This document shows, in pieces, positions 4,218 to 58,263 of a stretch of 64,000 nucleotides of DNA. The position numbers and the translations under genes were made by a program. Location of the stretch: NCBI RefSeq assembly GCF_000688255.1, contig NZ_JHYS01000013.1, positions 1 to 64,000 on the forward strand. The letters are read 5' to 3'. Each line of letters opens with the position of its first letter. The first letter of the stretch is position 1. The DNA comes from Simplicispira psychrophila DSM 11588. GTDB taxonomy: Bacteria; Pseudomonadota; Gammaproteobacteria; Burkholderiales; Burkholderiaceae_C. Under the pieces are notes generated by a model. It did not search any database. It was not told the origin of the DNA and saw nothing but the letters and a program-made list of their open reading frames with translations.

Positions 4218-4237
4218 CGTAGTCTAAAAAGACGATG
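4218..4237 (+). promoter_or_regulatory. Candidate operator site A (20-bp box) before MFS gene
   Basis: Reads CGTAGTC-TAAAAA-GACGATG. It ends 32 bases before the MFS start codon and lies in the divergent region with the aldehyde dehydrogenase gene. The left half matches the complement of the right half at 5 of 7 positions. It is one of eleven related boxes in the window. Confidence 0.6.
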
Positions 4238-4269
4238 GCGTGCGGCCCCTTGCCCGGCGAACATGGGGC

Positions 4270-5610
4270 ATGAACCTGCAAGATCCACCGCGCGTCAACT
4301 GGCGCACCCACCTGAGCCTGGCGCTGTTGGCGCTGGTGTATATCTTTTCCTACATTGACCGCCAGGTCGTGGCCATCCTGATCGAGCCGATCAAGCACGA
4401 GTTTGGCGCCAGCGACACGCAGATGGGGCTGCTGACCGGCCTGGCCTTTGGCCTGATGTATGCCGCACTGGGCGTGCCAGTGGGCAAGCTGTCTGACCAC
4501 ACAAGCCGGCGCAATATTGTGGCCGTGGCCTGTGGGCTGTGGAGCCTGGCCACCATGGCCTGCGGCTTTGCCGGCCAGTTCTGGCAGCTGCTGCTGGCCC
4601 GCATGTCGGTCGCAGTGGGCGAGGCCGGCGGCATGGCGCCGTCGATTTCGATGGTGTCCGACATGTACCCGCCCCGCCAGCGCTCATTCATGATCAGCCT
4701 GTTCATGATGGGGCCGCACTTTGGCGTGCTGATTGGCCTGGCGCTGGGCGGCTGGATTGCGCAGCACTACGGCTGGCGCGCCACGTTCATCTGGTTTGGT
4801 GTGCCCGGCCTGCTGCTTGCGGCCTTGGTGTTTTTGTTGGTGCGCGAACCGCGCCGGGGTGGCTTTGAAACGGCAGAGGTCCTGGAGCAGCTGCAGCAGC
4901 AGCCGGTCGAATCGATGTGGAAGCAGCTGCGCCGCCTGCTCGGCATTACCGCGTTTCGCCGTCTGGCCTTCGCCTGCGGGCTAGCCGGCATGGCCGGCTA
5001 CGGTTACGGCATCTGGACACCGAGCTTCCTGGTACGCACGCACGGCATGAGCATGGCCCATGCCGGCCTGCTTTTTGGCGTGGTCAGCGGCGTGGGCGCG
5101 GTGGCTGGCGCCCTGACCAGTGGCTGGCTGTGTGACCGTCTGGTAGCGCGGGATGTGCGCTGGCAGATCGGCCTGCCGATGCTGGGTGTGGTCATTGCCA
5201 TTCCTTGCGCCATTGCCTTTTTTATGTGGCCGACCACTGGCAACTGGATGCTGGGCCCGATGAAGGTGCCGCACGCGCTGGCGTTTGCTGCGGTGTTTGC
5301 ATTCTTTGCCAGCTGGTGGCCGTCGCTGTCGTTCAGCGCCACCAGCCACATGGTGGCTTCGAACGAACGCGGTGTGGCTGCGGCTCTGCTGAGCTTTTTT
5401 CTCACGCTGTTTGGCGTGGGTGCGGGTCCGCTGGTGACCGGCATAGTCAGCGACCTGCTGACCCCCATGTTTGGCGTCGAGGCGCTGCGCTGGTCACTGG
5501 TGTGCGTGATGCTGTTCATGGTGCCCACCGCCGTGCTGATGGCTATGTCGCTCAAGCCCTACCGTGCGCGACTGGAGCAGATAAGGCCCAGCAGCTTGCG
5601 TCGTGCCTGA
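4270..5610 (+). CDS. MFS transporter, spinster/hexuronate-type, probable steroid uptake
   Basis: A 446-residue major facilitator protein with about 12 hydrophobic segments. TM1 has IFSYIDRQVVAILIEPIKHEF, and the loop after TM2 has GVPVGKLSDHTSRR, the MFS A-motif. A second ASWWPSLSFSATSHM segment is typical of this branch, in which the protein at 9172 is a clear relative. The start at 4270 is preferred over the upstream in-frame GTG at 4240, although the ribosome site is poor. The gene lies inside a steroid cluster just downstream of operator-like site A, so import of a steroid or bile acid is the simplest idea; the family name alone does not show substrate. Confidence 0.85.
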   Translation: MNLQDPPRVNWRTHLSLALLALVYIFSYIDRQVVAILIEPIKHEFGASDTQMGLLTGLAFGLMYAALGVPVGKLSDHTSRRNIVAVACGLWSLATMACGFAGQFWQLLLARMSVAVGEAGGMAPSISMVSDMYPPRQRSFMISLFMMGPHFGVLIGLALGGWIAQHYGWRATFIWFGVPGLLLAALVFLLVREPRRGGFETAEVLEQLQQQPVESMWKQLRRLLGITAFRRLAFACGLAGMAGYGYGIWTPSFLVRTHGMSMAHAGLLFGVVSGVGAVAGALTSGWLCDRLVARDVRWQIGLPMLGVVIAIPCAIAFFMWPTTGNWMLGPMKVPHALAFAAVFAFFASWWPSLSFSATSHMVASNERGVAAALLSFFLTLFGVGAGPLVTGIVSDLLTPMFGVEALRWSLVCVMLFMVPTAVLMAMSLKPYRARLEQIRPSSLRRA

Positions 5611-5693
5611 TACGCACTGCTTGGCGCTGCTGCCGGATGCAGGTGCGTCCGGCAGCAGCGCACTTTCATATTTACAGCCAAAGGAACATTTGC

Positions 5694-6554
5694 GTGTCTG
5701 TCGCTCGCTCTGCTTTTTATCCTTCGCCATCGGGCGTCGTTTTCATCACCGGTGCCAGCCGCGGCATTGGCGCCGCCACCGCCGAGGCGTTTGCGCGTGC
5801 CGGCTGGCGCGTGGCGATTGCCGCGCGCACGCATGACGCCAGCCAGGCGCTAGCGCACCAGCTGCGCCGCCCCGATGGCCAGCTGCTGGCCGGCAGCCTG
5901 GCCACCACCGCCGCCGCCGTGCAGGCCTGCGGCGCCGAGGTGTTTGCCCATGCCATGGACCTGATGGACAGCGCCTCGATGGATGCGGCGCTGGATGCGG
6001 TGCTGGCACACTTTGGCCGCATCGATCTGCTGATCAACAACGCCGTCTACCAGGACCGTGAGATCAACGCCATGTTGCTGGAGCTGGACGATGCCGCGCT
6101 GCAGCGCACGCTGCTGGGCAACGTGGTGGCGCCATTCCACTTGGCGCGCCGGCTGCTGCCGACGCTGCTGGCGCAGGGCAGCGGCCAGATCATCAATGTC
6201 TGCTCCGGCGCCGGCCAGAGTGACCCGCCGATCGCCGCCAACCAGGGCGGCTGGGGCTTTGCCTACGGTGCCTCCAAGGCGGGTCTGGCGCGGCTGGCCG
6301 GCTGCATCAACCGCGAACACGGCGCCCAGGGCGTGCGTGCCTACAGCGTCAACCCCGGCCTGGTCACGACCGAGGCCGTGACTGCCACGCTCGGCGAGGA
6401 CAGCGCGCTGGCGCAGCGCTATGGCGCGGTGTCGCCCAGCGCCATTGCTGCCGGCTTGCTGTGGCTGGCCACCGACCCGGGCGCTGTGGCGCTGGCGCGC
6501 AAGCCCACGCTGATACAGCTGCAGGAACTGGTGCACGAACACCAGTTGACATGA
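5694..6554 (+). CDS. SDR family oxidoreductase
   Basis: A 286-residue short-chain dehydrogenase: FITGASRGIGAATAEAF at the cofactor site, NNAVYQDREIN in place of the usual NNAG, an extended loop after the catalytic Ser region (CSGAGQSDPPIAANQGGWGF), then Tyr-x3-Lys in YGASK. The end LQELVHEH is non-standard, so it is probably not a typical 3-ketoacyl reductase. The start is GTG at 5694 with AAAGGAAC eight bases upstream; a much longer open frame from 5205 overlaps the MFS gene and is rejected. The stop overlaps the next start by ATGA, showing translational coupling with the small HTH protein. Substrate is unknown. Confidence 0.82.
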   Translation: MSVARSAFYPSPSGVVFITGASRGIGAATAEAFARAGWRVAIAARTHDASQALAHQLRRPDGQLLAGSLATTAAAVQACGAEVFAHAMDLMDSASMDAALDAVLAHFGRIDLLINNAVYQDREINAMLLELDDAALQRTLLGNVVAPFHLARRLLPTLLAQGSGQIINVCSGAGQSDPPIAANQGGWGFAYGASKAGLARLAGCINREHGAQGVRAYSVNPGLVTTEAVTATLGEDSALAQRYGAVSPSAIAAGLLWLATDPGAVALARKPTLIQLQELVHEHQLT

Positions 6555-6814
6555 CGCTGCAGCGCCTGCCGCAGGTGCCACTCCTGCCACGGCCACTGCT
6601 GACCAATGCGCAGTGGCGCTGCCTGCGCGTGCTGAGCGAGGTCGGCGGCGATGTGGCCCACGCGGCGCGCAAGCTGCACTGTGCACAGGGGTCGCTCAAG
6701 GGAGCGCTGGCGGAATTGCAAACCTGCCTGGGGGCGCAGCATCTGGCGGTGTCGGATGCGCATGTGCAACTGTCTCCATCACTGCAGATGCTGTTGCGCT
6801 CGCGCTGCGACTGA
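6551..6814 (+). CDS. Small stand-alone HTH protein, LysR N-terminal-like
   Basis: An 87-residue protein whose start overlaps the stop of the SDR gene by four bases. Residues about 18-60 (NAQWRCLRVLSEVGGDVAHAARKLHCAQGS in outline, followed by LKGALAELQTCLG) resemble the winged helix-turn-helix of LysR regulators: a first helix, a short turn, then a recognition helix and a linker helix. There is no effector-binding domain; the protein ends at LQMLLRSRCD. It could be a truncated LysR regulator, a small DNA-binding protein or a decayed gene. Translational coupling and an uninterrupted frame favour expression. It immediately precedes the region with two operator-like half-boxes and the Rieske oxygenase gene. 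Confidence 0.55.
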   Translation: MTLQRLPQVPLLPRPLLTNAQWRCLRVLSEVGGDVAHAARKLHCAQGSLKGALAELQTCLGAQHLAVSDAHVQLSPSLQMLLRSRCD

Positions 6815-6831
6815 GTCCGCTGCGCCGCGTT

Positions 6832-6851
6832 CATCGTCCAAACGGCTTAAC
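6832..6851. promoter_or_regulatory. Candidate operator half-site B before Rieske gene
   Basis: Reads CATCGTC-CAAACG-GCTTAAC. The left half is the exact complement of GACGATG; the right half is degenerate. It shares the 11-mer ATCGTCCAAAC with site C 58 bases downstream. Confidence 0.45.
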
Positions 6852-6889
6852 CGGTCCGGCGGTTTGCGCTGTATCAGCCCGAGCGGTCC

Positions 6890-6909
6890 TATCGTCCAAA
6901 CAGGGTATG
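6890..6909. promoter_or_regulatory. Candidate operator site C before Rieske gene
   Basis: Reads TATCGTC-CAAACA-GGGTATG. It ends 62 bases before the Rieske oxygenase start, the same spacing as in sites D2, F, G, H and J. Palindromy is partial. Confidence 0.5.
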
Positions 6910-6971
6910 TCAGCGGGGAGCGGCAAATCCATCATTGCCCTCTACCCATTACTACACTGTCTGGAGACTTT

Positions 6972-8099: not shown

Positions 8100-8160
8100 C
8101 CGCTCGGTAGGAATGGCCGGCGGTGCAGACACAGCACCTACCGGCCAGGCATTCCCCCTT

Positions 8161-8207
8161 CCCGCCTTGGGCTACAGCCACGCTGTAGTCCACAGGCGGG
8201 TTTTTTT
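8161..8207 (+). terminator. Rho-independent terminator after Rieske gene
   Basis: The outer stem CCCGCCT/AGGCGGG encloses an inner hairpin CTACAGC/GCTGTAG, followed by seven T. The T run overlaps the stop codon of the convergent EthD-type gene. Confidence 0.88.
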
Positions 8208-9051: not shown

Positions 9052-9171
9052 GGCGGTGGGCCTTTCTATCGGGGTGGATGAAACGAGGTGACTTAGCGAT
9101 AGCCTATTCAACGACGGCCCGGCTGTAAATCGGGGGTATGCCCCGTACCTTGTGGTAACTGTGGGCGGTGT

Positions 9172-10449: not shown

Positions 10450-10604
10450 AGTCGGCCTGTGGTGTGCTGGTGCAGCGGTGCGTCGTGGCTGCGCCGGCAG
10501 CAGGCGATAGGGGGCATGGAGCAAATCCTCAGAGGTGGCGCCTGGGCGTGCACAGTCGCCGCCGCAGCGATGCTTGCCATTTTTTGGCGCCCCTGTTGCC
10601 CGGT

Positions 10605-10624
10605 CATCGTCCGCTCAGACGATG
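10605..10624 (-). promoter_or_regulatory. Candidate operator site D1, perfect palindrome
   Basis: Reads CATCGTC-CGCTCA-GACGATG on the plus strand, with fully complementary 7-bp arms. On the minus strand it differs from site D2 at a single position of 20, spacer included. It lies 155 bases before the MFS start at 10449. Confidence 0.65.
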
Positions 10625-10713: not shown

Positions 10714-10733
10714 CATGGTCTGAGCGGACGATG
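10714..10733 (+). promoter_or_regulatory. Candidate operator site D2 before SDR gene
   Basis: Reads CATGGTC-TGAGCG-GACGATG and ends 73 bases before the SDR start at 10807. It is a near-exact inverted copy of site D1, including the 6-bp spacer. Confidence 0.65.
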
Positions 10734-10806
10734 GCGCTGCCGCACTGGCCGCTGAAGATGCTGCGCAACTACAACCACCGCCCCATCGGCGAGACAAGGA
10801 GACAAC

Positions 10807-11664
10807 ATGGCTTTCACATTGACAGGGTTTGACGGCAAAGTGGCCGTGGTCAGCGGCGCGGGCCGGATGCGCAGCATTGGCCGGCCGATTGCGCTGGCAC
10901 TGGCGCAGGCCGGCTGCGACGTGGTGCTGACCGGCACCGGGCGCGCGCCCGAGACGTATCCGCAAGACGAGCAGGACGCCGGCTGGCGCGACATTGCATC
11001 GGTCGCCGACGAGATTCGTGCTCTGGGCCGGCGCGCCTTGCCCGTGGTTACCAGCGTGGCCGACCCGGACGCCGTCGATGCCTTGGTGGCGCAGGTGATC
11101 GCCGAATTTGGCCGCGTGGATTTTCTGGTGAACAACGCCGGCGCATCGCGCGGCGGCGACCGCGTGCCGGTCACCGAGCTGGCTATCGAAACCTGGAAGC
11201 GCGTGATGGACACCAACCTGAACGGCACCTTTTATATGTCGCGCGCTTTTGCCCGGCAGATGAGCGCGCAGGGCGAAGGTGGCGCCATTGTCAACATCTC
11301 CTCGCTGGCAGCGCGCCTCTTGGCGCCCGACACCGCCGCCTACGCTACGACCAAAGTGGCCATCAACGGTTTGAGCACCATCATGGCCGGTGAGCTGGGG
11401 CCGAAAAACATCCGCGTCAACGTGGTGGCCCCCGGCATCATCGACACCAGCCGCTTGGACGATGTGCCACGCGGACAAGTCTGGGACGACATGGTCGCCG
11501 CCTTCATTCCGCTGGGTCGCGCCGGCACCGGCGAAGACGTGGCCAACATGGTGACCTTTCTGTGCAGCGCACAAGGCGCTTGGGTCACCGGCCAGCACAT
11601 CTACGTCGATGGTGGTCACGGTGCTACGCCGCGCCGGCCAGCGCCAGCACCAGTGCAGAAGTGA
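10807..11664 (+). CDS. SDR family oxidoreductase
   Basis: A 285-residue short-chain dehydrogenase. The cofactor motif is modified (SGAGRMRSIGRPIALALAQAG), with extra residues after the glycine motif that are common in fabG-like and diol-dehydrogenase-like members. NNAGASRGG, a catalytic Ser in NISSLAAR and Tyr-x3-Lys in YATTK are all present. The Pro/Ala tail after the HIYVDGGHG end motif is not conserved. The start has a strong ribosome site (AAGGAG six bases upstream). It sits 73 bases after operator-like site D2 and is convergent with the GMC oxidoreductase. A role in oxidising a nuclear hydroxyl or keto group is inferred from context only. Confidence 0.82.
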   Translation: MAFTLTGFDGKVAVVSGAGRMRSIGRPIALALAQAGCDVVLTGTGRAPETYPQDEQDAGWRDIASVADEIRALGRRALPVVTSVADPDAVDALVAQVIAEFGRVDFLVNNAGASRGGDRVPVTELAIETWKRVMDTNLNGTFYMSRAFARQMSAQGEGGAIVNISSLAARLLAPDTAAYATTKVAINGLSTIMAGELGPKNIRVNVVAPGIIDTSRLDDVPRGQVWDDMVAAFIPLGRAGTGEDVANMVTFLCSAQGAWVTGQHIYVDGGHGATPRRPAPAPVQK

Positions 11665-16249: not shown

Positions 16250-16269
16250 CCACATGCAAACGGACGATG
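16250..16269 (-). promoter_or_regulatory. Candidate operator half-site E before hsdA
   Basis: On the minus strand reads CATCGTC-CGTTTG-CATGTGG. One half is perfect and the other weak. It lies 83 bases before the hsdA start codon. Confidence 0.4.
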
Positions 16270-16482: not shown

Positions 16483-16502
16483 CGTAGTCTTGTTGGACGA
16501 TG
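16483..16502 (+). promoter_or_regulatory. Candidate operator site F before SDR operon
   Basis: Reads CGTAGTC-TTGTTG-GACGATG and ends 69 bases before the SDR start. The last 18 bases are identical to site J, spacer included. Confidence 0.65.
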
Positions 16503-16571
16503 AGACTGGGACTCTCTGTCTTTAGTCTTGTGGCACCCATCGATTGAAAAATTTCCACAGGAGCACAACCC

Positions 16572-20978: not shown

Positions 20979-20998
20979 GTTAGTCTCAACGGACGATG
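20979..20998 (+). promoter_or_regulatory. Candidate operator site G before tesB operon
   Basis: Reads GTTAGTC-TCAACG-GACGATG and ends 68 bases before the tesB start, at the head of a ten-gene ring-degradation operon. Confidence 0.62.
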
Positions 20999-21066
20999 CT
21001 GGTGCCGGGTCGGCTGACCAGAATCAGTCCATCGACTTGATGCGTGCAAAACCAGGAGAAGCGTGA

Positions 21067-26495: not shown

Positions 26496-27650
26496 ATGGA
26501 CTTGAATTACACCCCTGCGCAACAGGCTTTCCGGGTCGAAGTGCGCGACTGGCTGCACAGCCATGTGCCGAGCGAAAAATTTGCCAGCTACGACACGCGC
26601 GAAGGCTTTGAGCAGCACCGCCGCTGGGAAGCCGTGCTGGCCGAAGGCGGCTGGAGCAGCGTCACCTGGCCCAAGGATTTAGGTGGGCGCGGCTGCGACC
26701 TGATCGACTGGCTGATTTTTGAAGAAGAGTACGCCGCAGCGAATGCGCCGTTTCGCGTCAACCAGAACGGCATCTTGCTGCTCGGCCCGACGCTGATGGA
26801 GTTTGGTACGCCCGAACAAAAAGCCAGGTTCCTGCCGCGCATGGCGCGCTGTGACGACATGTGGGCGCAGGGCTGGAGCGAGCCGAACGCCGGCTCGGAC
26901 ATGGCCGCCATCAGCAGCCGCGCCATCCGCGACGGCGACCACTACGTGCTGACGGGCCAAAAAACCTGGTCCACCCGCGCGCTGTTTGCCAACTGGCTGT
27001 TTGGCCTGTTTCGCAGCGACCCCAACTCCAGCCGCCACCATGGCCTGAGCTACATGCTGGTGCCGCTCGATACCCCCGGCATCACCATCCGCCCGATCCA
27101 GGCGCTGAACGGCAAGCAGGCGTTTGCCGAGGTCTTCTTTGACGATGTGCGCGTGCCGGTGGAGAACCTGCTGGGCGACGAAGGCCAGGGCTGGAACGTG
27201 GCCATGGCCACCGCCGGCTTTGAGCGCGGCTTGCTGCTGCGCTCGCCGGCGCGCTACCAGCGCACGGCACAAAAACTGCTGGCGCTGTACCGCAAGCACC
27301 AGGCCAGCGCCGACCGCGACCCGTCGATCCGCGAAGCGGTAGTGCGCGCCTGGATGGGCGCCGAGGCCTACAACCTGGCCTCGTACCACACGGTCAGCCG
27401 GGTGCAACACGGCGCGCGCATTGGCGCCGAGGCCAGCACCAACAAGATTTTCTGGTCGGAGCTGGACTTGGACATGCACGAGACCGCCATGCGCATCCTG
27501 GGTCCGCGCGCCGAACTGTGCGACGACCCCGAGACGCACGACTGGCTCGAAGGATTCCTGTTTGCCCAGGCCGGCTCGATCTACGCTGGCAGCAACGAGA
27601 TCCAGCGCAACATCATTGCCGAGCGGATGCTCGGTTTGCCCAAGTACTGA
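26496..27650 (+). CDS. Acyl-CoA dehydrogenase, subunit of heteromeric pair 1 (IpdE-like)
   Basis: A 384-residue FAD acyl-CoA dehydrogenase. It has DLNYTPAQQAFRVEVRDWL at the N-terminus, the FAD/substrate motif QGWSEPNAGSDMAAI, TGQKTWSTRA, and the C-terminal AGSIYAGSNEIQRNIIAERMLG, so the flavin-binding half of the active site looks intact. It is 12 bases from a shorter dehydrogenase (27663), a pairing typical of the alpha2beta2 steroid dehydrogenases (FadE-type, IpdE1-IpdE2). ATG 26496 has CGAGGA upstream. A likely reaction is dehydrogenation of 5-OH-HIC-CoA or a related indanone thioester (context). Confidence 0.88.
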   Translation: MDLNYTPAQQAFRVEVRDWLHSHVPSEKFASYDTREGFEQHRRWEAVLAEGGWSSVTWPKDLGGRGCDLIDWLIFEEEYAAANAPFRVNQNGILLLGPTLMEFGTPEQKARFLPRMARCDDMWAQGWSEPNAGSDMAAISSRAIRDGDHYVLTGQKTWSTRALFANWLFGLFRSDPNSSRHHGLSYMLVPLDTPGITIRPIQALNGKQAFAEVFFDDVRVPVENLLGDEGQGWNVAMATAGFERGLLLRSPARYQRTAQKLLALYRKHQASADRDPSIREAVVRAWMGAEAYNLASYHTVSRVQHGARIGAEASTNKIFWSELDLDMHETAMRILGPRAELCDDPETHDWLEGFLFAQAGSIYAGSNEIQRNIIAERMLGLPKY

Positions 27651-33245: not shown

Positions 33246-33296
33246 CAGGCCCGCCCGGCTCATCGTCCATGCAGACGATGCCGCTTGGCGGGCCTG
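33246..33296 (+). terminator. Long GC stem-loop after pair 2, enclosing operator-like site H
   Basis: The arms CAGGCCCGCC (33246-33255) and GGCGGGCCTG (33287-33296) are fully complementary and enclose the 20-bp palindrome at 33261-33280. There is no long T run. The same outer arms occur at 51997-52029. It could end upstream transcription and present the operator at once. Confidence 0.6.
33261..33280 (+). promoter_or_regulatory. Candidate operator site H, perfect palindrome
   Basis: Reads CATCGTC-CATGCA-GACGATG. The arms are perfectly complementary and it ends 58 bases before the ipdF start at 33339. Confidence 0.65.
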
Positions 33297-33338
33297 CTTG
33301 CACCATGGGGCTGTCTTACTTTGATGGATGTTGACCCC

Positions 33339-35954: not shown

Positions 35955-37076
35955 ATGTCGCCAGAATTTTTAAGCCAGATCCTAGGGGCGGTATATGACG
36001 CGGCCCTGGATGAGGCGGGCTGGGTCAGTTTTCTGGAGTCGGTGCGCAAGATCATGGACGGCAATTACGCCTCGCTGATTGTGCGCACCGAAACCACTGA
36101 CGACATCGGCCTGATCGTCTCGGCCGGCCAGAACCAGCCCAGTCTCGACCCCGGCAATCCCTATATCGCCATGAGTCCCTTCACCGGGATGAAACCCGAC
36201 CATCTGGTCACCATCAGCGATGTGCTGTCGCCGCAAGAATGGCGCGCATCCAGCTATTACCGCGATTACTGCGCGGCGCAGGGCGTGTTCCATGTGCTTG
36301 CCGCCGACATCACTACGCGCAATGGCGGTGTCTATGGTTTTCGCGTCACCCGCCCGGAGACGGCGCCTGATTTTTCTAAAGATGACATCCGTTTTTGCAG
36401 TCTGCTGATTCCGCACATCAAGCGTGCCTTGAATCTGCACCTGTCGATCCACCAAGACCGCAAGGTCAGCACTTTGTACAGCCACGCCATGGCGCAAATG
36501 ATGGTCGGCGTGGTGGTGCTGGACCAGAACGGCGAGGTGATTGAATGCAACCCGGCCGCCACTGCCATCCTGGATGCCAAGGATGGCCTGAGCGTGGTCG
36601 GCAAGCAGTTGACCGCGTCCTATGCCGACGACAACCGCGCGCTGCAGGCACTGGTGCGCAGTGCGCTGGTCAACACCCACGCGGCACGCCTGTCGGTGAA
36701 CGAAGCCATGCCGATCAATCGCCCCTCGGGGCGCTTGAGCTGGGGGCTGATCGTGCAGAGCATTTCCTCCGACCAGTGGACCGAGGGCAAACAGCGCCCC
36801 AGCGTCGCCGTGTTTGTGCGCGATACCGAGGGCCGGGTGGATCCACCGGTGCGACTGGCGCAGCAGTTGTTTCGCCTCACGCCGGCCGAAACTGCGCTGG
36901 CGATCCAGCTGGCCAACGGCCTGTCGCTGGAGGAAGCGGCCGAGGTCCTGCACATCAAGCGCAACACCGCGCGCGCGCACCTGCGCTCGATCTTCTCCAA
37001 GACCGGCGTGCGCCGCCAGACCGAGCTGGTGCGTATTTTTCTCAATAGCGTGGCCTGGCTGAGCGCTGGCGAGTAA
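35955..37076 (+). CDS. tesR: LuxR-type transcriptional regulator, probable TesR-like activator
   Basis: A 373-residue regulator. The C-terminal LuxR/NarL winged HTH lies at about residues 305-368 (FRLTPAETALAIQLANGLSL in the start, then EEAAEVLHIKRNTARAHLRS with SIFSKTGVRRQTELVRI). The long N-terminal part has a PAS-like segment around MAQMMVGVVVLDQNGEVIEC. C. testosteroni TA441 activates its steroid genes with a LuxR-family protein TesR of about this size, found by the tesB-side cluster, so the context fits. The start ATG 35955 is preferred to TTG 35916. It stands alone, with no operator-like box upstream, and next to the defence island. The link to the boxes A-K is inference. Confidence 0.75.
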   Translation: MSPEFLSQILGAVYDAALDEAGWVSFLESVRKIMDGNYASLIVRTETTDDIGLIVSAGQNQPSLDPGNPYIAMSPFTGMKPDHLVTISDVLSPQEWRASSYYRDYCAAQGVFHVLAADITTRNGGVYGFRVTRPETAPDFSKDDIRFCSLLIPHIKRALNLHLSIHQDRKVSTLYSHAMAQMMVGVVVLDQNGEVIECNPAATAILDAKDGLSVVGKQLTASYADDNRALQALVRSALVNTHAARLSVNEAMPINRPSGRLSWGLIVQSISSDQWTEGKQRPSVAVFVRDTEGRVDPPVRLAQQLFRLTPAETALAIQLANGLSLEEAAEVLHIKRNTARAHLRSIFSKTGVRRQTELVRIFLNSVAWLSAGE

Positions 37077-37312: not shown

Positions 37313-38923
37313 ATGCTCGACGACATCCAAAAAACCCTCTGGGCTACGGCCGACAAACTGCGCGCCAACATGGACGCAGCCGAATACAAGCACCTGGTGC
37401 TGGGCCTGATCTTTCTCAAATACATCAGCGACACCTTTGCCGCGCGCCGCGCTGAAGTGGCCGTGCGTCTGAGCGACCCGGACGACGAGTACTACTACGG
37501 CGACGCCGCCCCCGAAGACCTGGCCGCCGAGCTGGACGACCGCGACTATTACGTCAGCGCCAACGTCTTCTGGGTGCCCGAAGGCGCCCGCTGGGAGCAG
37601 CTGCGCGCCCAGGCCAAGCAGCCGGAGATTGGTAAACGCATCGACGATGCGCTGGCGCTGATCGAGGGTGACAACCCCAAGCTCAAAGGCATTCTGGACA
37701 AACGCTTTGCCCGTGCGCAGCTGCCCGACGGCAAGCTGGGCGAGCTGGTGGACTTGGTATCGACCATCGGCTTTGGCGCCACGCCCGACGTGGCACGCGA
37801 CACCCTGGGGCAGGTGTACGAATATTTTCTGGGCATGTTTGCCAGCGCCGAAGGCAAGCGCGGCGGCCAGTTCTACACGCCCGCCAGCATCGTCAAAACC
37901 CTGGTGGCCGTGCTCAACCCGCACAGCGGCAAGGTGTACGACCCGTGCTGCGGCAGCGGTGGCATGTTTGTGCAGTCTGAGAAGTTCATCGCAGCGCACG
38001 GCGGCAAGATCAACGATGTGTCCATTTACGGGCAAGAAAGCAACCCCACCACCTGGCGCCTGGCCGCCATGAACTTGGCGATTCGCGGCATCGACTACAA
38101 CCTGGGCCGCGAGCCTGCCGACACCTTTGTGCGCAACCAGCACCCCGACCTGCGCGCCGACTTCATCCTGGCCAACCCGCCCTTCAACATCAGCGACTGG
38201 TGGCACGGCAGCTTGGAGGGCGACCCGCGCTGGGTCTATGGCGACCCGCCGCAAGGCAACGCCAACTACGCTTGGTTGCAGCACATGCTGCACCACCTCA
38301 AGCCCACCGGCCGCGCCGGCATCGTGCTGGCCAATGGCTCGATGAGCAGCAGCCAGAACAGCGAAGGCCAGATCCGCGCCGCCATGGTCGAGGCCGATGT
38401 GGTCGAGGTGATGGTGGCGCTGCCCGGCCAGTTGTTCTTCAACACGCAAATCCCCGCCTGCCTGTGGTTCCTGGCCAAGCAGAAAACCACGCGCAAGGGT
38501 GAAGTGCTTTTCATCGACGCCCGCAAACAGGCCAAGATGATTTCACGCGTGCAGGCCGAGCTGGACGACGCAGCGATTGCCCGCATCGCTAACACCGTCG
38601 CCGCTTGGCGCGGTGAAGCACTTCCCCTGTCTGCGGATTCACTCCCTCTCCCTCTGGGAGAGGGCGGGGGTGAGGGCTCCCCAGCCGCGTACCAGGACAT
38701 CCCCGGCTTCTGCCGCAGCGTCCCCCTGGCCGAGATTGCCCAGCACGGCCATGTGCTCACCCCCGGCCGCTACGTCGGCGCCGAAGAAGTCGAAGACGAC
38801 GACGAAGCCTTCGCCGACAAGATGCAAAAGCTGACGGAAAAACTGGGCGAGCAGATGGCCAAGGGCGCGGAGCTGGATGCGCTGATTCGGGTGAAGTTGG
38901 GAGGGCTGGGGTATGAGTTCTGA
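37313..38923 (+). CDS. hsdM: Type I restriction-modification DNA methyltransferase subunit
   Basis: N6-adenine methyltransferase (M) subunit of a type I R-M system, 536 residues. The N-terminal helical domain begins [23 protein letters not shown] motif I is [10 protein letters not shown] at 210-219 and catalytic motif IV is NPPF at 288-291. Residues about 443-456 ([18 protein letters not shown]) come from an in-frame insertion of a dispersed hairpin repeat (38644-38676) in a region between the methylase core and the conserved [10 protein letters not shown] segment, a linker that may tolerate it. The first gene of the island, it overlaps the DUF1016 fragment at its 3' end. Substrate recognition depends on HsdS. 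Confidence 0.95.
38644..38676. repeat. Dispersed hairpin repeat inserted in frame in hsdM
   Basis: CCCTCTCCC (38644-38652) and GGGAGAGGG (38656-38664) form a 9-bp stem around TCT, followed by CGGGGGTGAGGG. This is the widespread intergenic unit of the form CCCTCTCCC...GGGAGAGGG...GGGGTGAGGG, normally outside genes. Here it is translated as part of HsdM without a frameshift. Confidence 0.8.
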
Positions 38924-39194
38924 GATGGCCACCATCACCCCTGCCTACAGCCAATGTCTGGGCGACCTCAAAACCCGCTACCGCCAAGTTCAGCTCAAAG
39001 CGGCAGTTGCGGTCAACACTGCCATGCTCCAGTTTTATTGGGAACTGGGGGCCGACATTGCAGCGCAGCAGGGCAAACACGCCTGGGGCAGTGGCTTTCT
39101 TGCCCAACTCAGCGCGGGCCAGTCAACGCCTATTGCGAAGCAGGCTGCTTCGCAATTTGATGGTGACAATTCCAAGGAAACACGCAATGGCTGA
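38913..39194 (+). pseudogene. YhcG/DUF1016 nuclease, N-terminal remnant
   Basis: A 93-residue frame starting inside the 3' end of hsdM. Residues 14-70 (LGDLKTRYRQVQLKAAVAVN, then TAMLQFYWELGADIAAQQGKHAWGSGFLAQL) match the N-terminal domain of YhcG-like proteins, which normally continue about 250 residues to a PD-(D/E)XK nuclease domain. Here it breaks off at LSAGQ, and a 12-bp inverted repeat (39132-39156) follows. The nuclease domain is missing, so it is a remnant. Its normal association with type I R-M loci fits this location. Confidence 0.72.
39132..39156. repeat. Inverted repeat at break of YhcG remnant
   Basis: ATTGCGAAGCAG and CTGCTTCGCAAT are fully complementary 12-bp arms with a single central G. 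It may act as a terminator or mark the deletion point. Confidence 0.7.
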
Positions 39195-39621
39195 TACAAA
39201 ACTCGACCTAGACGCATTGCGCCGCGCAGTGGCTTCACTAGAGGACGGCTTGGAAGTGGTCAGCAACGCTGACTGGTTCAACCAGCAGTCGTCCAAAGTG
39301 CAAAACACCCTCATCGCCGGCGTGATTCAAAATTTTGAATTCGTCTACGAAGTCGGCTTCAAGATGCTGCGCCGCCAGATTGAGCTGGAGTCAGCCAGTC
39401 CGAGTGAGGTGGATGAGAGCAATTTCCGCGACGTGCTGCGCGTGGCGGCAGAAAAGGGGCTGATTGCCGATGTCGAAGCGTGGTTTCGCTACCGGCAAAT
39501 GCGCAACCTCACCGCCCACACCTACAACCACGAAAAAGCCCAGCAGGTGTACCAAGGCACGCTGCTGTTCATTGGCGATGCGCAGGCCTTGCTGGCCAGC
39601 TTGGAGGCACGCAATGCTTGA
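39187..39621 (+). CDS. hepT: HEPN-domain toxin/RNase of HepT type
   Basis: A 144-residue all-helical HEPN protein (HI0074 family). The catalytic motif is RX4HXY: Arg106-Asn-Leu-Thr-Ala-His111-Thr-Tyr113, exactly the form found in Shewanella HepT, where the Tyr is modified by its MntA partner with AMP units to block RNase activity. It begins at ATG 39187; the longer frame from 39007 is rejected. Its end overlaps the MntA start by eight bases. In this family HEPN is the toxin and MNT the antitoxin, which places a toxin-antitoxin pair between hsdM and hsdS. Confidence 0.88.
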   Translation: MADTKLDLDALRRAVASLEDGLEVVSNADWFNQQSSKVQNTLIAGVIQNFEFVYEVGFKMLRRQIELESASPSEVDESNFRDVLRVAAEKGLIADVEAWFRYRQMRNLTAHTYNHEKAQQVYQGTLLFIGDAQALLASLEARNA

Positions 39622-41371
39622 GCGCCCTTTGGTAGATGTTCGCCCCGACCTGTGGCGCATCGTGCAGGGCATCCTGCAAAAGCAAGTGCCAGACCGCGAG
39701 GTGTGGGCCTTTGGCTCGCGCGCCAAATGGACAGCGAAAGAATTTTCTGATTTGGATTTGGCCGTCATCGGCGAAGTGCCGCTGTCACTCGACGCATCCG
39801 CCGCCTTGGCCGAGGCGTTTTCCGAGTCCGACCTGCCGTGGAAAGTGGATGTGGTCGATTGGGCCAGCACCAGTGCGGAGTTTCGCCAAATCATTGAGCG
39901 GGACAGGGTGGTGGTGCAAAACGCCCCCGCAGCCCCCGTAGGTCGGGTTAGCCCAAAGGGCGTAACCCGACAGATGTCCGACGAGCCAGCGGCGGTGGGT
40001 GCCGAAGATGTCGGGTTACGCTGCGCTAACCCGACCTACGAGGGGGAGTGGAAATCCACCACCCTCGGTCAGATTTGTACAGCCCAAGGCGGGGCAATCC
40101 AAACCGGCCCTTTTGGCAGTCAGTTGCACACGTCTGATTACAAGGAGGTAGGGATTCCTGTAGTCATGCCTACCAATATTGGCGAGAGCGGCATCGTTCT
40201 TGATGGCATCGCCAGAATTGACCAATCAGACGTGGAGCGTCTTTCTCAACACAAGCTGCAACTTGGCGATATTGTTTTCAGTAGGCGTGGTGATGTCACC
40301 AAAAACGCCTTGATTCGCGAACACGAAGTCGGTTTTTTTTGCGGCACAGGATGCTTGAAAGTCAGACTGGGTAATGAATCCATTTCCAGCGCCAAATTCA
40401 TTTCGCACTACCTGCGATTACCTGAAATCAAGGATTGGCTGATACGTCATGCCGTTGGGGCTACGATGCCGAATTTGAATACCGGCATCCTTTCGGCTGT
40501 TCCCATTGATTTGCCACCGCTGCAAATTCAATGGGAAATAGCAACAATTCTCGGCGCACTCGACGATCGCATCACTCTCCTGCGCGAAACCAACGCCCCG
40601 CTCGAAGCCATCGCCCAGGCGCTGTTCAAGTCGTGGTTTGTCGATTTCGACCCCGTGCGCGCCAAGATGGAAGGCCGCGCCCCCGAAGGCATGGACGAGG
40701 CCACGGCGGCGCTGTTTCCGGATGGGCTGGAGGAGTCGGAGTTGGGGGTGGTGCCGAGGGGGTGGAGCACCGTTCCCATCTATGAGCTGGCCACCTATAT
40801 CAACGGTGCTGCCTACAAGGCATTCGAACCAAATACTGACTGCCGTGGGCTTCCTATCATCAAGATCGCGGAGCTTAAAGCGGGCGTTACTTCGCAGACT
40901 GCATATTCGGACGTCGCCATGCCAAACAAGTACCGCATCGAGACTGGCGACATCTTGTTTTCATGGTCTGGCAACCCTGATACGTCGATTGACACCTTCG
41001 TGTGGACCCACGACGAAGCTTGGTTGAACCAACATATCTTCCGCGTGCTGCCGCACTCATCAGAAGCGCGATCCTTCGTACTTCAAACACTTAAGCATCT
41101 CCGGCCAGTGTTCGCTGAATTGGCTCGCAACAAGCAAACAACCGGGCTTGGGCATGTGACGGTTGCGGATATGAAGCGCTTGTTGGTGGTCAAGCCCAAC
41201 AAGTCCGCCCTCGATCATTTCGACCTTGTCGTTGCACCTATTCATAGAAGAATTTTCGGCAATGTGCAGCAAGCCCAAACCCTTGCCACCCTCCGCGACA
41301 CCCTGCTGCCGCGCCTGATTGCCGGCCAGTTGCGGCTGCCCGAGGCACAGGCGCTGGTGGCTGCGGCGTGA
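39614..41371 (+). CDS. hsdS: MntA nucleotidyltransferase fused in frame to HsdS specificity subunit
   Basis: One uninterrupted frame of 585 residues. Residues 1-103 are a complete minimal nucleotidyltransferase (MntA antitoxin) with GSX10DXD: Gly34-Ser35 to Asp46-Leu-Asp48, and a third Asp at 79. Residues 109-143 are encoded by a paired REP element (39938-40040). From about residue 144 it is a normal type I specificity subunit: TRD1 from EWKSTTLGQICTAQGG, a helical spacer around LGALDDRITLLRETNAPLEA, the central conserved ALFKSWFVDFDPVRAK, TRD2 from GVVPRGWSTVPIYEL and a terminal LLPRLIAGQLRL. Two products may be made: an ATG at 39974 (residue 121) in the same frame could start a separate HsdS, but no strong ribosome site is seen. 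DNA target unknown. Confidence 0.85.
   Translation: MLERPLVDVRPDLWRIVQGILQKQVPDREVWAFGSRAKWTAKEFSDLDLAVIGEVPLSLDASAALAEAFSESDLPWKVDVVDWASTSAEFRQIIERDRVVVQNAPAAPVGRVSPKGVTRQMSDEPAAVGAEDVGLRCANPTYEGEWKSTTLGQICTAQGGAIQTGPFGSQLHTSDYKEVGIPVVMPTNIGESGIVLDGIARIDQSDVERLSQHKLQLGDIVFSRRGDVTKNALIREHEVGFFCGTGCLKVRLGNESISSAKFISHYLRLPEIKDWLIRHAVGATMPNLNTGILSAVPIDLPPLQIQWEIATILGALDDRITLLRETNAPLEAIAQALFKSWFVDFDPVRAKMEGRAPEGMDEATAALFPDGLEESELGVVPRGWSTVPIYELATYINGAAYKAFEPNTDCRGLPIIKIAELKAGVTSQTAYSDVAMPNKYRIETGDILFSWSGNPDTSIDTFVWTHDEAWLNQHIFRVLPHSSEARSFVLQTLKHLRPVFAELARNKQTTGLGHVTVADMKRLLVVKPNKSALDHFDLVVAPIHRRIFGNVQQAQTLATLRDTLLPRLIAGQLRLPEAQALVAAA
39938..40040. repeat. REPIN-like inverted REP pair at the MntA-HsdS junction
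   Basis: Left REP 39938-39972 and right REP 40009-40040 are inverted with respect to each other, with perfect outer arms GTAGGTCGGGTTAGC and GCTAACCCGACCTAC. Each is itself a palindrome. A related single REP is at 13379-13413. The element is open in the gene's frame and has 36 bases between the two REPs, including the ATG at 39974. Confidence 0.9.
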
Positions 41372-41381
41372 CAAAGCGGCA

Positions 41382-41432
41382 CATTAAAGAATTCTTTAAT
41401 GACCCAGCAGCCTGTTAAAGAAAACTTTAATG
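41382..41432 (+). promoter_or_regulatory. Tandem operator-like boxes before fic
   Basis: TTAAAG-AATT-CTTTAATG at 41384-41401 (inside the 20-bp perfect palindrome from 41382) and TTAAAG-AAAA-CTTTAATG at 41415-41432. The 31-bp spacing is near three helical turns. They may be autoregulatory sites for the Fic protein, which ends in a winged-helix domain. Confidence 0.6.
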
Positions 41433-41449
41433 TGTTTTTGCTACTTATT

Positions 41450-41503
41450 CGATAGCTGCAAGCGCACGTATCTAAAGGGCTAGATGCTGATTTGACTACT
41501 ATT
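41450..41503 (+). repeat. Dispersed palindromic repeat, copy 7
   Basis: Contains GATAGCTGCAAGCGCACGTA then TCTAAAGGGCTAGATGCTGA. It lies between hsdS and fic. Confidence 0.76.
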
Positions 41504-41535
41504 TTGTGCCAATGCGCCTCAAAACAGCCCCAAAC

Positions 41536-41607
41536 CATGTCTAAAAAACCGCTTTTTCTATACACATGGCCACTGACGTGCATAGAAATCGCGGTTTTTT
41601 AGACATG
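41536..41607. repeat. Long inverted repeat upstream of fic
   Basis: CATGTCTAAAAAACCGC (41536-41552) is exactly complementary to GCGGTTTTTTAGACATG (41591-41607). Inner parts CTATACAC and GTGCATAG extend the stem imperfectly. It ends 25 bases before the fic start and could be a hairpin in the mRNA leader or an operator. Confidence 0.78.
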
Positions 41608-41632
41608 TCCTCTTTCCTGAGAACGCTCTTTT

Positions 41633-42709
41633 ATGTCTTTTGACCGCAACCAACCCTACAACGACCTGCCGCTGCTGCCACCAGCCATGGAGCTGGAAAC
41701 CAAGGCGGTGCTGAAACAAGCGATTGCCGCCAATCGGGTGCTGGCCAATCTGCGGGGCTTGGCAGCGCAGATACCGAATCAAGGCGTACTCATCAATAGC
41801 ATCGTGCTGCAAGAGGCGCGGCTGTCGTCCGAGATTGAAAACATCGTTACCACCAACGATGAGCTGTACCGCGCCGATGCCGATGCCGATGGCAAAACCG
41901 ACCCACACACCAAGGAAGTGCTGCGCTACCGCCAAGCGCTGAACTTCGGCTTTCGCCAGCTGAAGGAACGCCCGCTCTCCACCAATCTGTTTATCGACAT
42001 CGTTCGCACCATCAAGCAAGTGGACTTGGGCGTGCGCAGGGTGCCGAATACGGCGTTAAAAAACGCATTGAACGAGGTGGTGTACACGCCCCCGGTCGGT
42101 GAGGCTGTCATACGCGAGAAGCTGGCCAACTTGGAGCAGTTCATCCATGCGCAGGACGACTTAGACCCGCTGGTCAAGATGGCCGTGATGCACTACCAAT
42201 TTGAGGCCATTCACCCCTTCGAGGATGGCAACGGCCGCACCGGGCGCATTTTGAATCTGCTGTATTTGGTGGAGCAAGGGCTGTTGGATAGTCCAGTGCT
42301 CTTCCTGTCGCGCTACATCATTGCCAACAAGCCGGGCTATTACGAAGGGCTGCGCGGCGTAACCGAGCGGCAGGACTGGGAGAGCTGGATTCTGTACATG
42401 CTGCGCGCCGTCGAAAGCACTGCACAGCAGACATTCGACCAAGTAACCCGCATTCGGCTATTGATGGAGCAGGTGCGCGAGCAAGTGCAGCAACAAGCGC
42501 CGGGCATCTACAGCAAAGACCTGATTGAAGCGATTTTTCAACATCCGTACACCAAGATTCAATTTCTGGTGGACGCCAACATCGCTAAGCGCCAGACCGC
42601 ATCCAGCTACCTTCAGACCTTGGCGGGCTTGGGCGTGCTGCGCTCCAGCAAGCAAGGACGGGAGATGTATTACATCAACGACGCGCTGTTTTCTGAGTTG
42701 GTGAAATGA
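41633..42709 (+). CDS. Fic-domain AMP-transferase with N-terminal inhibitory helix and C-terminal winged helix
   Basis: A 358-residue class II Fic protein. The catalytic loop HPFEDGNGRTGR is at 194-205 and matches the active consensus. An inhibitory motif [S/T]xxxE[G/N], Ser65-x-x-x-Glu69-Asn70, lies N-terminal, as in self-inhibited Fic enzymes. The last about 60 residues (QFLVDANIAKRQTASSYLQTLAG and LGVLRSSKQGREMYYIND in outline) look like a winged-helix DNA-binding domain. Such Fic proteins often sit in R-M loci. ATG 41633 follows paired boxes and a long inverted repeat. Transfer of AMP to a target protein is expected; the target is unknown. Confidence 0.92.
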   Translation: MSFDRNQPYNDLPLLPPAMELETKAVLKQAIAANRVLANLRGLAAQIPNQGVLINSIVLQEARLSSEIENIVTTNDELYRADADADGKTDPHTKEVLRYRQALNFGFRQLKERPLSTNLFIDIVRTIKQVDLGVRRVPNTALKNALNEVVYTPPVGEAVIREKLANLEQFIHAQDDLDPLVKMAVMHYQFEAIHPFEDGNGRTGRILNLLYLVEQGLLDSPVLFLSRYIIANKPGYYEGLRGVTERQDWESWILYMLRAVESTAQQTFDQVTRIRLLMEQVREQVQQQAPGIYSKDLIEAIFQHPYTKIQFLVDANIAKRQTASSYLQTLAGLGVLRSSKQGREMYYINDALFSELVK

Positions 42710-49631: not shown

Positions 49632-49651
49632 CATCGTCCAAAAGGACGAAA
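49632..49651 (-). promoter_or_regulatory. Candidate operator site I before YCF48-RND unit
   Basis: Reads CATCGTC-CAAAAG-GACGAAA on the plus strand, a palindrome at 5 of 7 arm positions. It lies 99 bases before the GTG start at 49532. Confidence 0.5.
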
Positions 49652-49736: not shown

Positions 49737-49756
49737 CATAGTCTTGTTGGACGATG
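49737..49756 (+). promoter_or_regulatory. Candidate operator site J before Ltp2-like gene
   Basis: Reads CATAGTC-TTGTTG-GACGATG and ends 56 bases before the start at 49813. It shares its last 18 bases with site F. Confidence 0.65.
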
Positions 49757-49812
49757 GGTGTCGGCGCACGGCTGCCCACAATGCAAGCTACCCACATTCA
49801 CTGAAGGAACCC

Positions 49813-53299: not shown

Positions 53300-53330
53300 G
53301 CATCAAACAGGGCGCAAACTGTTGCTGGGT

Positions 53331-53362
53331 CTGCGCTACAAGCTATTGATCTTGTAGCGCAG
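53331..53362. repeat. Perfect 12-bp inverted repeat after tesG
   Basis: CTGCGCTACAAG and CTTGTAGCGCAG form a perfect 12-bp stem around CTATTGAT. It lies about 28 bases beyond the tesG stop codon and may stabilise the mRNA end. Confidence 0.7.
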
Positions 53363-53390
53363 CAGCGTGTTTGACGCCCCGTGCCGCAGC

Positions 53391-54434: not shown

Positions 54435-54456
54435 GGTGTGTATTTTCTTGAATCTG

Positions 54457-55380: not shown

Positions 55381-55393
55381 AGGGAGGATTTCC

Positions 55394-56191: not shown

Positions 56192-56194
56192 GGC

Positions 56195-57031
56195 TCAGCC
56201 GTTCTGCATGAAGTCGATGCAGCTGCGGTTGAACAGCTCGCGGTGCTCGACCTGCACCCAATGGCCGCAGCGGTTGAGCATCACCATGCGCGCATTGGGG
56301 CAGTTGTCCAGCAGCTTGGCCGCGCCGCTGGCCGGGTTGAATTGGTCGTTGATGCCCCAGAAGCCAAACACCGGACAGCGCAACTGGTGCAGTTGCTCGG
56401 TCATGTTCGGTACTTTCAAAATCGAGCGGGCGGCATTGGTTTGCGTCAGTGCAATCGGCGCGCGTTCGTTGATGATTTCTTCGGTTAGCAGGCTGGGGTC
56501 AAACAGCTGCATGGTCATCACGGCGCGCATCGCTTCGGCGCCGGTTTTGCCGGATTTGTAGATGGCGAACATGTTGGCAATGCCGGGCATGGCCAAGTAG
56601 GTGTCGATGTCTTCGACGCCGCCGGGTGCCATCAAAATCAGCCGCGCCACGTCGTCCGGGTAGGCCAGCGCATAGCCCAGCGCCACCGCGCCGCCGAGCG
56701 AGTTGCCCAGCAGCGTGACTTTTTCAAGGCCCAGGCCATCGACCAGGCCCTTGATGCCGGCAATGAACAAGTCCAGGTCGTACTGCGGCAGGTCGGGCTT
56801 GCTCGACAGGCCATAGCCAATCAGGTCGGGAACGATGGCGCGGTAGCCGGCCTGGGCAAATTCGGGATAGTTGCCCTTGAAGTTGCTGTAGCCGCTGGCG
56901 CCGCCGCCGGCGCCATGCAAAAAGATGACGGCTTCACCTGCGCCCTGCTCGTGGTAATGCACGCGCTGGGGCAGGCCAGAGATGTCGCCAATGTCGAGGT
57001 ATTTGCCTTCAGGAATAGGGGTGGTTTGCAT
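56195..57031 (-). CDS. tesD: Meta-cleavage product hydrolase
   Basis: A 278-residue alpha/beta hydrolase. Ser111 in GNSLGG, Asp229 in GINDQF and His257 in CGHWVQVEH form the triad, in the same arrangement as HsaD. It hydrolyses the TesB product 4,9-DSHA to 2-hydroxyhexa-2,4-dienoate and the indanone propionate (HIP or DOHNAA). The oxyanion HGAGGGASGYSN segment is complete. It lies three bases downstream of tesE and 65 bases after tesA1. Confidence 0.95.
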   Translation of the reverse strand: MQTTPIPEGKYLDIGDISGLPQRVHYHEQGAGEAVIFLHGAGGGASGYSNFKGNYPEFAQAGYRAIVPDLIGYGLSSKPDLPQYDLDLFIAGIKGLVDGLGLEKVTLLGNSLGGAVALGYALAYPDDVARLILMAPGGVEDIDTYLAMPGIANMFAIYKSGKTGAEAMRAVMTMQLFDPSLLTEEIINERAPIALTQTNAARSILKVPNMTEQLHQLRCPVFGFWGINDQFNPASGAAKLLDNCPNARMVMLNRCGHWVQVEHRELFNRSCIDFMQNG

Positions 57032-57096
57032 GGGTGTGCCCTTAAAGAAAGGAGAAAGCTAAAAAAGCCGGTAGTGCTTGAAGCGGTGGAGGTGCT

Positions 57097-58101
57097 TTAG
57101 GCGTCTCGCGGCGCTGGCGCCTGCCACAACTTGGGCAGGCCGGGGTCGGTGGCCAAAATGGCTTGCTTGAGCAGGTTGCGCAGCGCGGCCGATTCCATCT
57201 CGCCCATGCGGTCCACCAAATCGGCTTCGACCGATTTGGCGGCGGCCAGCACATGCAAGATGGCGTCGGTGCCGGCAGCGCTCAGGCGCAGGCCGCCGGC
57301 TTCTTGCTCCAGCAGGCCGCGTTGCACCAGCGATTGCAGGCTGGCGGCGCTGGAGTCGATACCGGTGTAGGCGATGTGCGCGGCAATTTCGGGCACCGCC
57401 AGCGGCTGGCGTACGCTCAGCAGCGACAGCACAAAAAAATCGGTGTCCGACAGCTGTTTCGCTTGCAGCGTGCCGCGAATGCCGTGCAGAAACTGAAAGT
57501 GCGCCCGTCCAAACAAATAGCCCAGCAAATTTTCGGAATACACCGCGCCGTCCAGCTGTGCCAGCGGCTCGGTGGAAACCGGCGCCGCCTTGCGCGCCGC
57601 CAGCGCGTAGCCGCCGGTGACGTAGACCAGTGGCGGCACGGCGCAGCTGTCGTATTGCACCACTTCGCCAACAAAAATCGTGTGGTCGCCGCCTTCGTAT
57701 TTGAAGGCAGTTTTGCACTGAAAGCGCGCGCTGCAACCGGGCAGCAGCGGCGCGCCGCTGGGCTGCGTGTCCATGGCCAGACCGTTGAATTTGTCTTCGC
57801 CGGCGCGGGCAAAGCGGTTGGACAGGGCTTCTTGCTCGTTCGACAGGATGTGCACGTTCCAGTGCGTGCTCTCGCTGAACGCCTCTAGGCTGCGCGCGTT
57901 GTTGGCCAAGCTCCACAGCACCATGGGCGGGTCGAGCGACACCGAGTTGAAGCTGTTGGCCGTCACGCCAATCGGTGCGCCATCGGGTGCGGTGGTGGTG
58001 ACGATGGTCACGCCGGTGGCAAACATGCCCAAGGCGCGGCGAAATTCTTTCGGGTCAAAAGCGGTGGGGGTGGCAGCGGTGGTGGGGGCAGTAGCGTCCA
58101 T
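57097..58101 (-). CDS. tesA1: Flavin reductase component with C-terminal MarR-like domain
   Basis: A 334-residue protein. Residues about 15-180 are a flavin reductase domain (FRRALGMFATGVTIVTTTAPDG, VTANSFNSVSLDPPMVLWSL, HTIFVGEVVQYD), which supplies reduced flavin to TesA2. Residues about 190-330 form a MarR-type winged helix, SDTDFFVLSLLSVRQPLAVPEIAAHIAYTGIDSSAASLQSLV in outline then QRGLLEQEAGGLRLSAAG. Plain reductases such as HsaB end near residue 190. A similar fusion in the C1 reductase of Acinetobacter 4-hydroxyphenylacetate hydroxylase lets the substrate control NADH use, so steroid-gated activity is plausible. The start is at 58101 and the gene diverges from tesA2. Confidence 0.9.
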   Translation of the reverse strand: MDATAPTTAATPTAFDPKEFRRALGMFATGVTIVTTTAPDGAPIGVTANSFNSVSLDPPMVLWSLANNARSLEAFSESTHWNVHILSNEQEALSNRFARAGEDKFNGLAMDTQPSGAPLLPGCSARFQCKTAFKYEGGDHTIFVGEVVQYDSCAVPPLVYVTGGYALAARKAAPVSTEPLAQLDGAVYSENLLGYLFGRAHFQFLHGIRGTLQAKQLSDTDFFVLSLLSVRQPLAVPEIAAHIAYTGIDSSAASLQSLVQRGLLEQEAGGLRLSAAGTDAILHVLAAAKSVEADLVDRMGEMESAALRNLLKQAILATDPGLPKLWQAPAPRDA

Positions 58102-58243
58102 GCAAGTCTCCTGAGTCTTGAGGACTGAGCTTGCCGGGCGCTGGACGCGCGGGAATCCCCCACACGGACTAGACACGCGCGGGGTTTGCCACAGGTCAGG
58201 TGCAGCGCGCACGGCGGCGCCGATAGGTGCACTAGGGTTGGTT

Positions 58244-58263
58244 TTTAGTCTGATTGGACGATG
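58244..58263 (+). promoter_or_regulatory. Candidate operator site K between tesA1 and tesA2
   Basis: Reads TTTAGTC-TGATTG-GACGATG. It lies 101 bases before tesA2 and 142 bases before tesA1 on the other strand, so it could serve both directions. Confidence 0.6.

Follow-up and report, generated by a model that had tools for sequence, protein, structure and literature searches.

The window analyzed here is a stretch of 64,000 nucleotides from Simplicispira psychrophila DSM 11588 (contig NZ_JHYS01000013.1, positions 1 to 64,000), which contains a cluster of steroid degradation genes with a recurring 20-bp box in front of its transcription units. A preliminary description of this sequence proposed that the box is an operator of the pathway and named the LuxR-type protein encoded at 35955, here called TesR, as the first candidate to bind it. 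Sequence of the kind described is present at all of the places listed, although the list, which was said to contain eleven sites, actually has 12 labels (A, B, C, D1, D2, and E to K). The box is a 20-bp imperfect palindrome with the core TMGTCY-N4-RGACGATG, and it is asymmetric, in that the half GGACGATG is better conserved and faces the -10 hexamer in the best-scoring orientation; the other half is TMGTCY. An inverted repeat of this length, ~20 bp, is what a lux-box-type class II activator site has.

Seven of the boxes precede genes read from the plus strand. Box C (6890 to 6909) is at the kshA promoter, with a candidate -10 of CATCAT at 6930 to 6935. Box D2 (10714 to 10733) is followed by GAAGAT at 10754 to 10759 and an SDR gene at 10807, box F (16483 to 16502) by TAGTCT at 16523 to 16528 and an SDR/SDR/SnoaL unit from 16572, and box G (20979 to 20998) by CAGAAT at 21019 to 21024 and the tesB operon from 21067. 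Box H (33261 to 33280), for which no strand is given, precedes the ipdF-MaoC-thiolase-tesR unit (-10 CACCAT at 33301 to 33306), box J (49737 to 49756) precedes the ltp2 (thiolase-like) unit (CACAAT at 49777 to 49782), and box K (58244 to 58263) precedes a tesA2-like flavoprotein unit (GACTAT at 58284 to 58289). The distances from box end to start codon are 62 nucleotides (nt) for C, 73 for D2, 69 for F, 68 for G, 58 for H, and 56 for J, which is the range of 56 to 73 previously given. On the minus strand, box D1 (10605 to 10624) belongs to the MFS2 unit, with AAAAAT at 10584 to 10579, and box I (49632 to 49651) belongs to a YCF48-like/MMPL-RND unit, with AAGAAT one base nearer to the box than is usual (+20). 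As originally reported, the palindromes of D1 and H are perfect, with arms of 7 bp. Boxes are also found near MFS2 homologues in genomes G128, G357, and G131 and in stretch L048.

The remaining sites are less regular. Box A (4218 to 4237) had been assigned to an MFS transporter gene, and that gene, on the plus strand with its start codon 32 nt from the box, is indeed one flank; however, the site is divergent, and its own -10 (TAGGAT at 4197 to 4192) faces the aldehyde dehydrogenase (ALDH)/SDR unit on the minus strand. Boxes B and E had been described as half-sites. Box B (6832 to 6851, minus strand), 58 bp upstream of C, is weak (matrix score of 14.2), and among the relatives a paired second site of this kind (score of at least 13) is found only in G131, so we do not count this weak and poorly conserved sequence as a full member. 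Box E (16250 to 16269, minus strand), which precedes a gene for a 3-alpha-hydroxysteroid dehydrogenase-like SDR (hsdA), has a degenerate proximal half and no clear -10 after it in this genome; however, an E-like sequence recurs in 5 other genomes, upstream of their hsdA homologues, although 0/4 reach a score of at least 13. We therefore regard E as conserved yet degenerate and did not accept it as a full member either. Box C, in which the distal half is intact and the proximal half is degenerate, is not a chance half-site, since a matching box precedes kshA in 12/12 orthologues (9 at a score of at least 13 and the other 3 at a score of at least 10) and the -10 is at the same spacing in 13/13. 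Just upstream of the kshA boxes, at 6551 to 6814, is an 87-amino-acid open reading frame with a weak match to a LysR-type helix-turn-helix. This protein was rejected as the box binder because its Pfam score is under the cutoff and it is poorly conserved.

The motif is not common in the genome as a whole. In 38 contigs (3.6 Mb), there are 10 strict matches to GTCYNNNNGGACGATG, of which 9 are on the window contig (8 in the window and 1, site M, beyond it at contig position 69311) and 1 is on contig C9, between a gene for an OYE-type oxidoreductase and etfB. C9 ends with exactly the same 1641 bp with which the window contig begins. Based on this overlap, the C9 match probably maps ~110 to 130 bases before window base 1, and the two contigs are probably neighbors, or else etfBA is duplicated. 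With a looser pattern, the sole match in this genome outside the window contig is one on contig C6. When 1 mismatch to the strict pattern is allowed, the genome has 76 strand-matches versus 24 for the reversed pattern, which indicates that many of the weak matches are noise. Within the window, there are 58 strand-matches with up to 3 mismatches, versus 7.6 (standard deviation, 4.2; largest, 21) over 100 shuffles. A scan with a matrix trained on nine window sites, as the preliminary description had suggested, adds site N, which is beyond the window at contig position 82459, has 1 mismatch to the strict pattern, and precedes a DUF1329/DUF1302 gene pair. Low-scoring intragenic matches (e.g., at 27128 and 45500) were dismissed as coding coincidence; the same gene of G357 also has a sequence like that at 27128. 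No matrix match at a score of at least 13 was found at 37313 to 42709, between tesR and the RND unit. This segment, inside the steroid cluster, carries Type I restriction-modification genes, a gene for a Fic protein, and a nucleotidyltransferase/substrate-binding pair (MNT-HEPN-like).

Conservation of the box was examined in regions of relatives fetched around TesR and around motif matches; looser-motif matches resembling a common coding word (TCGTCCAC-type), together with some others, lay outside the fetched set. In 1.05 Mb of this sequence, there are 169 matrix matches at a score of at least 13, whereas ten matrices with permuted columns average 11.7 (largest, 17). When the boxed window genes were used as queries against 33 sequences, a box was found upstream of 118/130 of their orthologues, a total that excludes hsdA (0/4) and MFS2, versus 1/188 for thirteen control genes. 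The sole control match is the CoA-transferase gene of G168, a genome in which this gene and tesB are ~53 kb apart, with a separate box for each unit. All orthologues are boxed for ALDH (12/12), MFS1 (9/9), the SDR genes behind D2 (SDRb, 1/1) and F (SDRe, 8/8), tesB (10/10), tesA2 (11/11), ECH (4/4), SDR (4/4), and DUF1329 (4/4), and the values are 21/24 for ipdF, 14/15 for ltp2, 9/12 for kshA, 3/6 for OYE, and 2/4 for etfB. The value for YCF48 is 6/6, but here the neighboring ltp2 box may be the one counted. No box is directly before tesR itself in the near set (0/29). Of 20 further stretches chosen around motif matches elsewhere, 17 have steroid gene homologues beside the box and 3 (L159, L173, and L177) do not. 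In L159 (2856 to 4603, genome G128), two boxes lie between transposase-like open reading frames and a hydrolase gene. By eye, this hydrolase looks like an alkyl sulfatase with a metallo-beta-lactamase fold, and it is possibly a new member of the regulon.

The distance from the box to the -10 is also conserved. In our own genome, the pattern nAnnnT begins 21 bases after the box (+21) in 13/18 oriented promoters, with no other offset exceeding 3, and in orthologous promoters it does so in 120/146, with 15/146 at the next-best offset. For individual genes, the proportions are 22/22 for ipdF, 11/11 for tesB, 10/10 for SDRe, 16/18 for ltp2, 12/13 for ALDH, 8/9 for DUF1329, 9/14 for tesA2, 7/10 for MFS1, 4/4 for ECH, 4/5 for SDR, 3/3 for etfB, and 1/2 for hsdA. 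The relatives' boxes have nAnnnT at +21 in 72/118 cases in the better orientation and in 41/118 in the other, and among 160 nonredundant boxes, a -10-like hexamer is present on one side of 118, on both sides of 17, and on neither side of 25. In most of the 146 sequences, the -35 slot reads ATGnnn, not TTGACA, and so carries no consensus. In the usual numbering, the first base of the -10 hexamer is -12, and with a 21-base gap this puts the center of the box at approximately -42.5. The lux box is likewise described, in the available text of PMC3376562, PMC4471428, and PMC7585371, as a 20-bp inverted repeat centered at -42.5. Judged by its -10 spacing and its -35 slot, the layout is consistent with that of a class II LuxR-type activator.

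Behind box H, ipdF, a gene for a MaoC protein, and one for a thiolase are followed, all on the plus strand, by tesR (35955 to 37076). Its product has a C-terminal GerE helix-turn-helix (PF00196, residues 321 to 374; 26.3 bits versus a cutoff of 23.5), which is the only Pfam match at an E value of 1e-5; neither an acyl-homoserine-lactone-binding domain nor a kinase domain was detected at that threshold. The gene is a putative orthologue of that for TesR (TeiR) of Comamonas testosteroni, with which it agrees in position and family. The AlphaFold model of TesR has a mean pLDDT of 66.3 and a pTM of 0.46, and among the 50 Foldseek matches listed for it, most are phytochrome and PDE/GAF proteins, together with RhlR, at low TM scores. 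The recognition core NTxRxHLR is present in 39/39 homologues with at least 38% identity, 33 of which have RNTARAHLRS unchanged, but in only 4/23 of those below this level. In a 32% paralogue from G142, the helix is changed, and there is one match (score of 14.1) within the 20 kb around it.

The distribution of the motif follows that of TesR in a sample of 399 genomes of the family. TesR at 55% identity or more is found in 13/399 and the strict motif in 27/399, with the motif in 11/13 TesR genomes versus 16/386 others (Fisher p of ~1e-12). A TesR homologue of at least 40% is present in 14/399, namely, the 13 plus G116 (40%). With the looser motif, 14/14 of these genomes have 4 to 15 strand-matches (124 in total), compared with 0 to 2 (21 in total) in 30 chosen controls, and the reversed looser pattern has 0 matches in the 14 TesR genomes. 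The rarity of the motif in our genome, its position upstream of orthologous operons, and this tracking of tesR all support the proposal of a pathway operator. Co-occurrence, the fixed gap to the -10, and the conserved recognition helix likewise support the choice of TesR as the first candidate binder. The sample includes four other genomes of the same genus as the window, and at the thresholds applied, neither TesR nor TesB has a match in any of them, which indicates that the cluster is patchily distributed.

Boxes also accompany more distant regulators. In Vibrio alfacsensis (TesR, 40%), they precede tesA2, etfB, and an ECH/SDR pair, and the plasmid bears steroid gene homologues. Plasmids of Caballeronia, Cupriavidus, and Burkholderia arboris (39 to 40%, helix slightly changed) have boxes, two of which are upstream of the regulator gene. 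In Caballeronia, B. arboris, and G116, boxes lie beside the regulator gene itself. The picture in Alphaproteobacteria is ambiguous. A kshA box is present in a single Sphingobium plasmid. The steroid region of a Sphingobium plasmid (L179, 23976 to 27699) has three box-like places at a score of at least 15 without a proper -10, and its regulator keeps NTxRxHLR and differs at two neighboring residues.

Based on these observations, we consider it very probable that TesR (called TeiR in C. testosteroni) has the box as its operator and is a direct activator. A TesR dimer in a steroid-induced state would bind the 20-bp imperfect palindrome at approximately -42.5, where it would occupy the -35 position and recruit sigma-70 RNA polymerase to the -10 hexamer that starts 21 bases after the box. 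A single box could serve two divergent promoters. Since box H precedes the ipdF unit and tesR is the last gene of this unit, positive feedback on tesR through it is likely. The accessible text of PMC6678751 describes tesR/teiR as needed to induce most of the identified steroid genes of C. testosteroni, which fits an activator.

Other explanations must be weighed against this one. It is quite improbable that the box is the site of a repressor that blocks the promoter until a pathway intermediate releases it, in the manner of KstR/KstR2 in Actinobacteria. The palindrome does overlap the -35 slot, which is a possible position for a repressor, and PhaR, LuxR, TetR, and BRP are described in the available text of PMC6678751 as repressors of the C. 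testosteroni beta-hsd gene. However, a -35 slot without a TTGACA-like sequence leaves little basal promoter to repress, there is no TetR, MarR, GntR, or IclR family member among the matches listed for the 50 proteins examined from this contig and the neighboring one, and the same source describes tesR/teiR as required for induction. We also think it unlikely that a second activator encoded elsewhere binds the box, with TesR serving as a sensor or kinase upstream of it. That arrangement would accord with the report, in what is available of PMC6678751, that TeiR is membrane located and has kinase activity that starts a phosphorylation cascade, and coinheritance of TesB with TesR cannot tell such an activator from TesR. 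Against it, Pfam finds no kinase in TesR at an E value of 1e-5, the boxes accompany the conserved TesR recognition helix, and the other candidate in the window, the LysR-like open reading frame, is clearly similar only to sequence in G357 and weakly similar to sequence in G004. That the motif is a sigma factor promoter element or a repeat family instead of an operator is hardly credible: it does stand at a fixed distance from transcription units, but it is palindromic and used in either orientation, 17/160 boxes are flanked on both sides by -10-like hexamers, the -10-like hexamer after the box is at lux-box spacing, and the match on C6 is the only looser one off the window contig.

Several points weigh against direct activation by TesR. 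TesB occurs in 11/399 genomes, all with TesR, so that TesR and some other pathway factor cannot be told apart by co-occurrence, and G131 and G094 have TesR and no TesB match. The counts for relatives come from related, nonindependent sequences in stretches picked around TesR or motif matches. The +21 expectation was derived from lux-box spacing with our own sequences in view, so that the relatives are its only fresh test, and nAnnnT at +21 is absent from the promoters of OYE (0/4, where ACAAT is one base nearer to the box), SDRb (0/1), and YCF48 (0/7, an unreliable value because the neighboring ltp2 box may be picked; the -10 of our own box I is at +20). Cupriavidus N-1, with a regulator of 33% identity, has one weak match, and two Sphingobium regulators keep NTxRxHLR without clear boxes: one has box-like matches without a proper -10, and the other has none above 13.0. 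Finally, the accessible portion of PMC6678751 reports that TeiR is a polar membrane protein and a kinase.

The proposed TesR operator can be compared with several known systems. It resembles the lux box and LuxR of Vibrio fischeri in being a 20-bp imperfect inverted repeat at approximately -42.5, judged by -10 spacing, with no -35 consensus, a GerE-type helix-turn-helix regulator, and likely positive feedback. It differs in its half-site, which is GGACGATG here, in its regulator of ~373 to 386 amino acids without the Pfam acyl-homoserine-lactone domain, and in its apparent link to a steroid signal and to many operons of one catabolic pathway. KstR and KstR2 of Actinobacteria are TetR repressors with one operator type repeated before steroid operons. 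The repetition is the same here, but the layout fits an activator, and no TetR protein is among the matches listed for the 50 proteins examined. The KstR/KstR2 regulons are named in the available text of PMC6678751. The EdcR operator of Caenibius tardaugens is also a palindrome at steroid (estrogen) promoters, but according to the accessible text of PMC8700777, it is a TetR-like repressor site over the -10 with the sequence TnnCnnTACnAnTnGTAnnGnnA, which is unrelated to the box. In C. testosteroni, the LuxR-type gene is similarly placed at the end of a tesB-to-tesR cluster and is described, in the portions of PMC13101464 and PMC6678751 available, as a positive regulator of steroid genes; in contrast to what we propose, the protein is reported there as a polar membrane kinase, and no DNA target is described in these portions.

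We found no published site of this form in the open-access literature, a search that the original TeiR/TesR papers lie outside. Within the text available, no such site is described in PMC6678751, PMC8399759, PMC8700777, PMC12239570, PMC13101464, or PMC12882949, and a literature search with the letters GGACGATG and "steroid" gave, among the matches listed, no title on bacterial steroid regulation. Reviews, in the parts available, present the control of aerobic steroid breakdown in Proteobacteria as complex and little understood and report several repressors whose role is disputed. Against this background, it is probable that the box is the first DNA operator of TesR/TeiR and defines a proteobacterial steroid regulon that extends from Comamonadaceae to Vibrio, in which TesR would be a direct class II activator, not only a membrane kinase, and in which one palindrome, at -42.5 of both neighbors, would drive two divergent promoters with starts ~85 bp apart. 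A conserved box with a predicted transcription start makes TesR binding testable and could allow steroid biosensors with a defined promoter to be made. The box also predicts unknown genes of the pathway, such as the uptake-like DUF1329/DUF1302 units and the OYE/ETF pair, and it offers a clear way to decide between a kinase and a DNA-binding activator as the role of TeiR.

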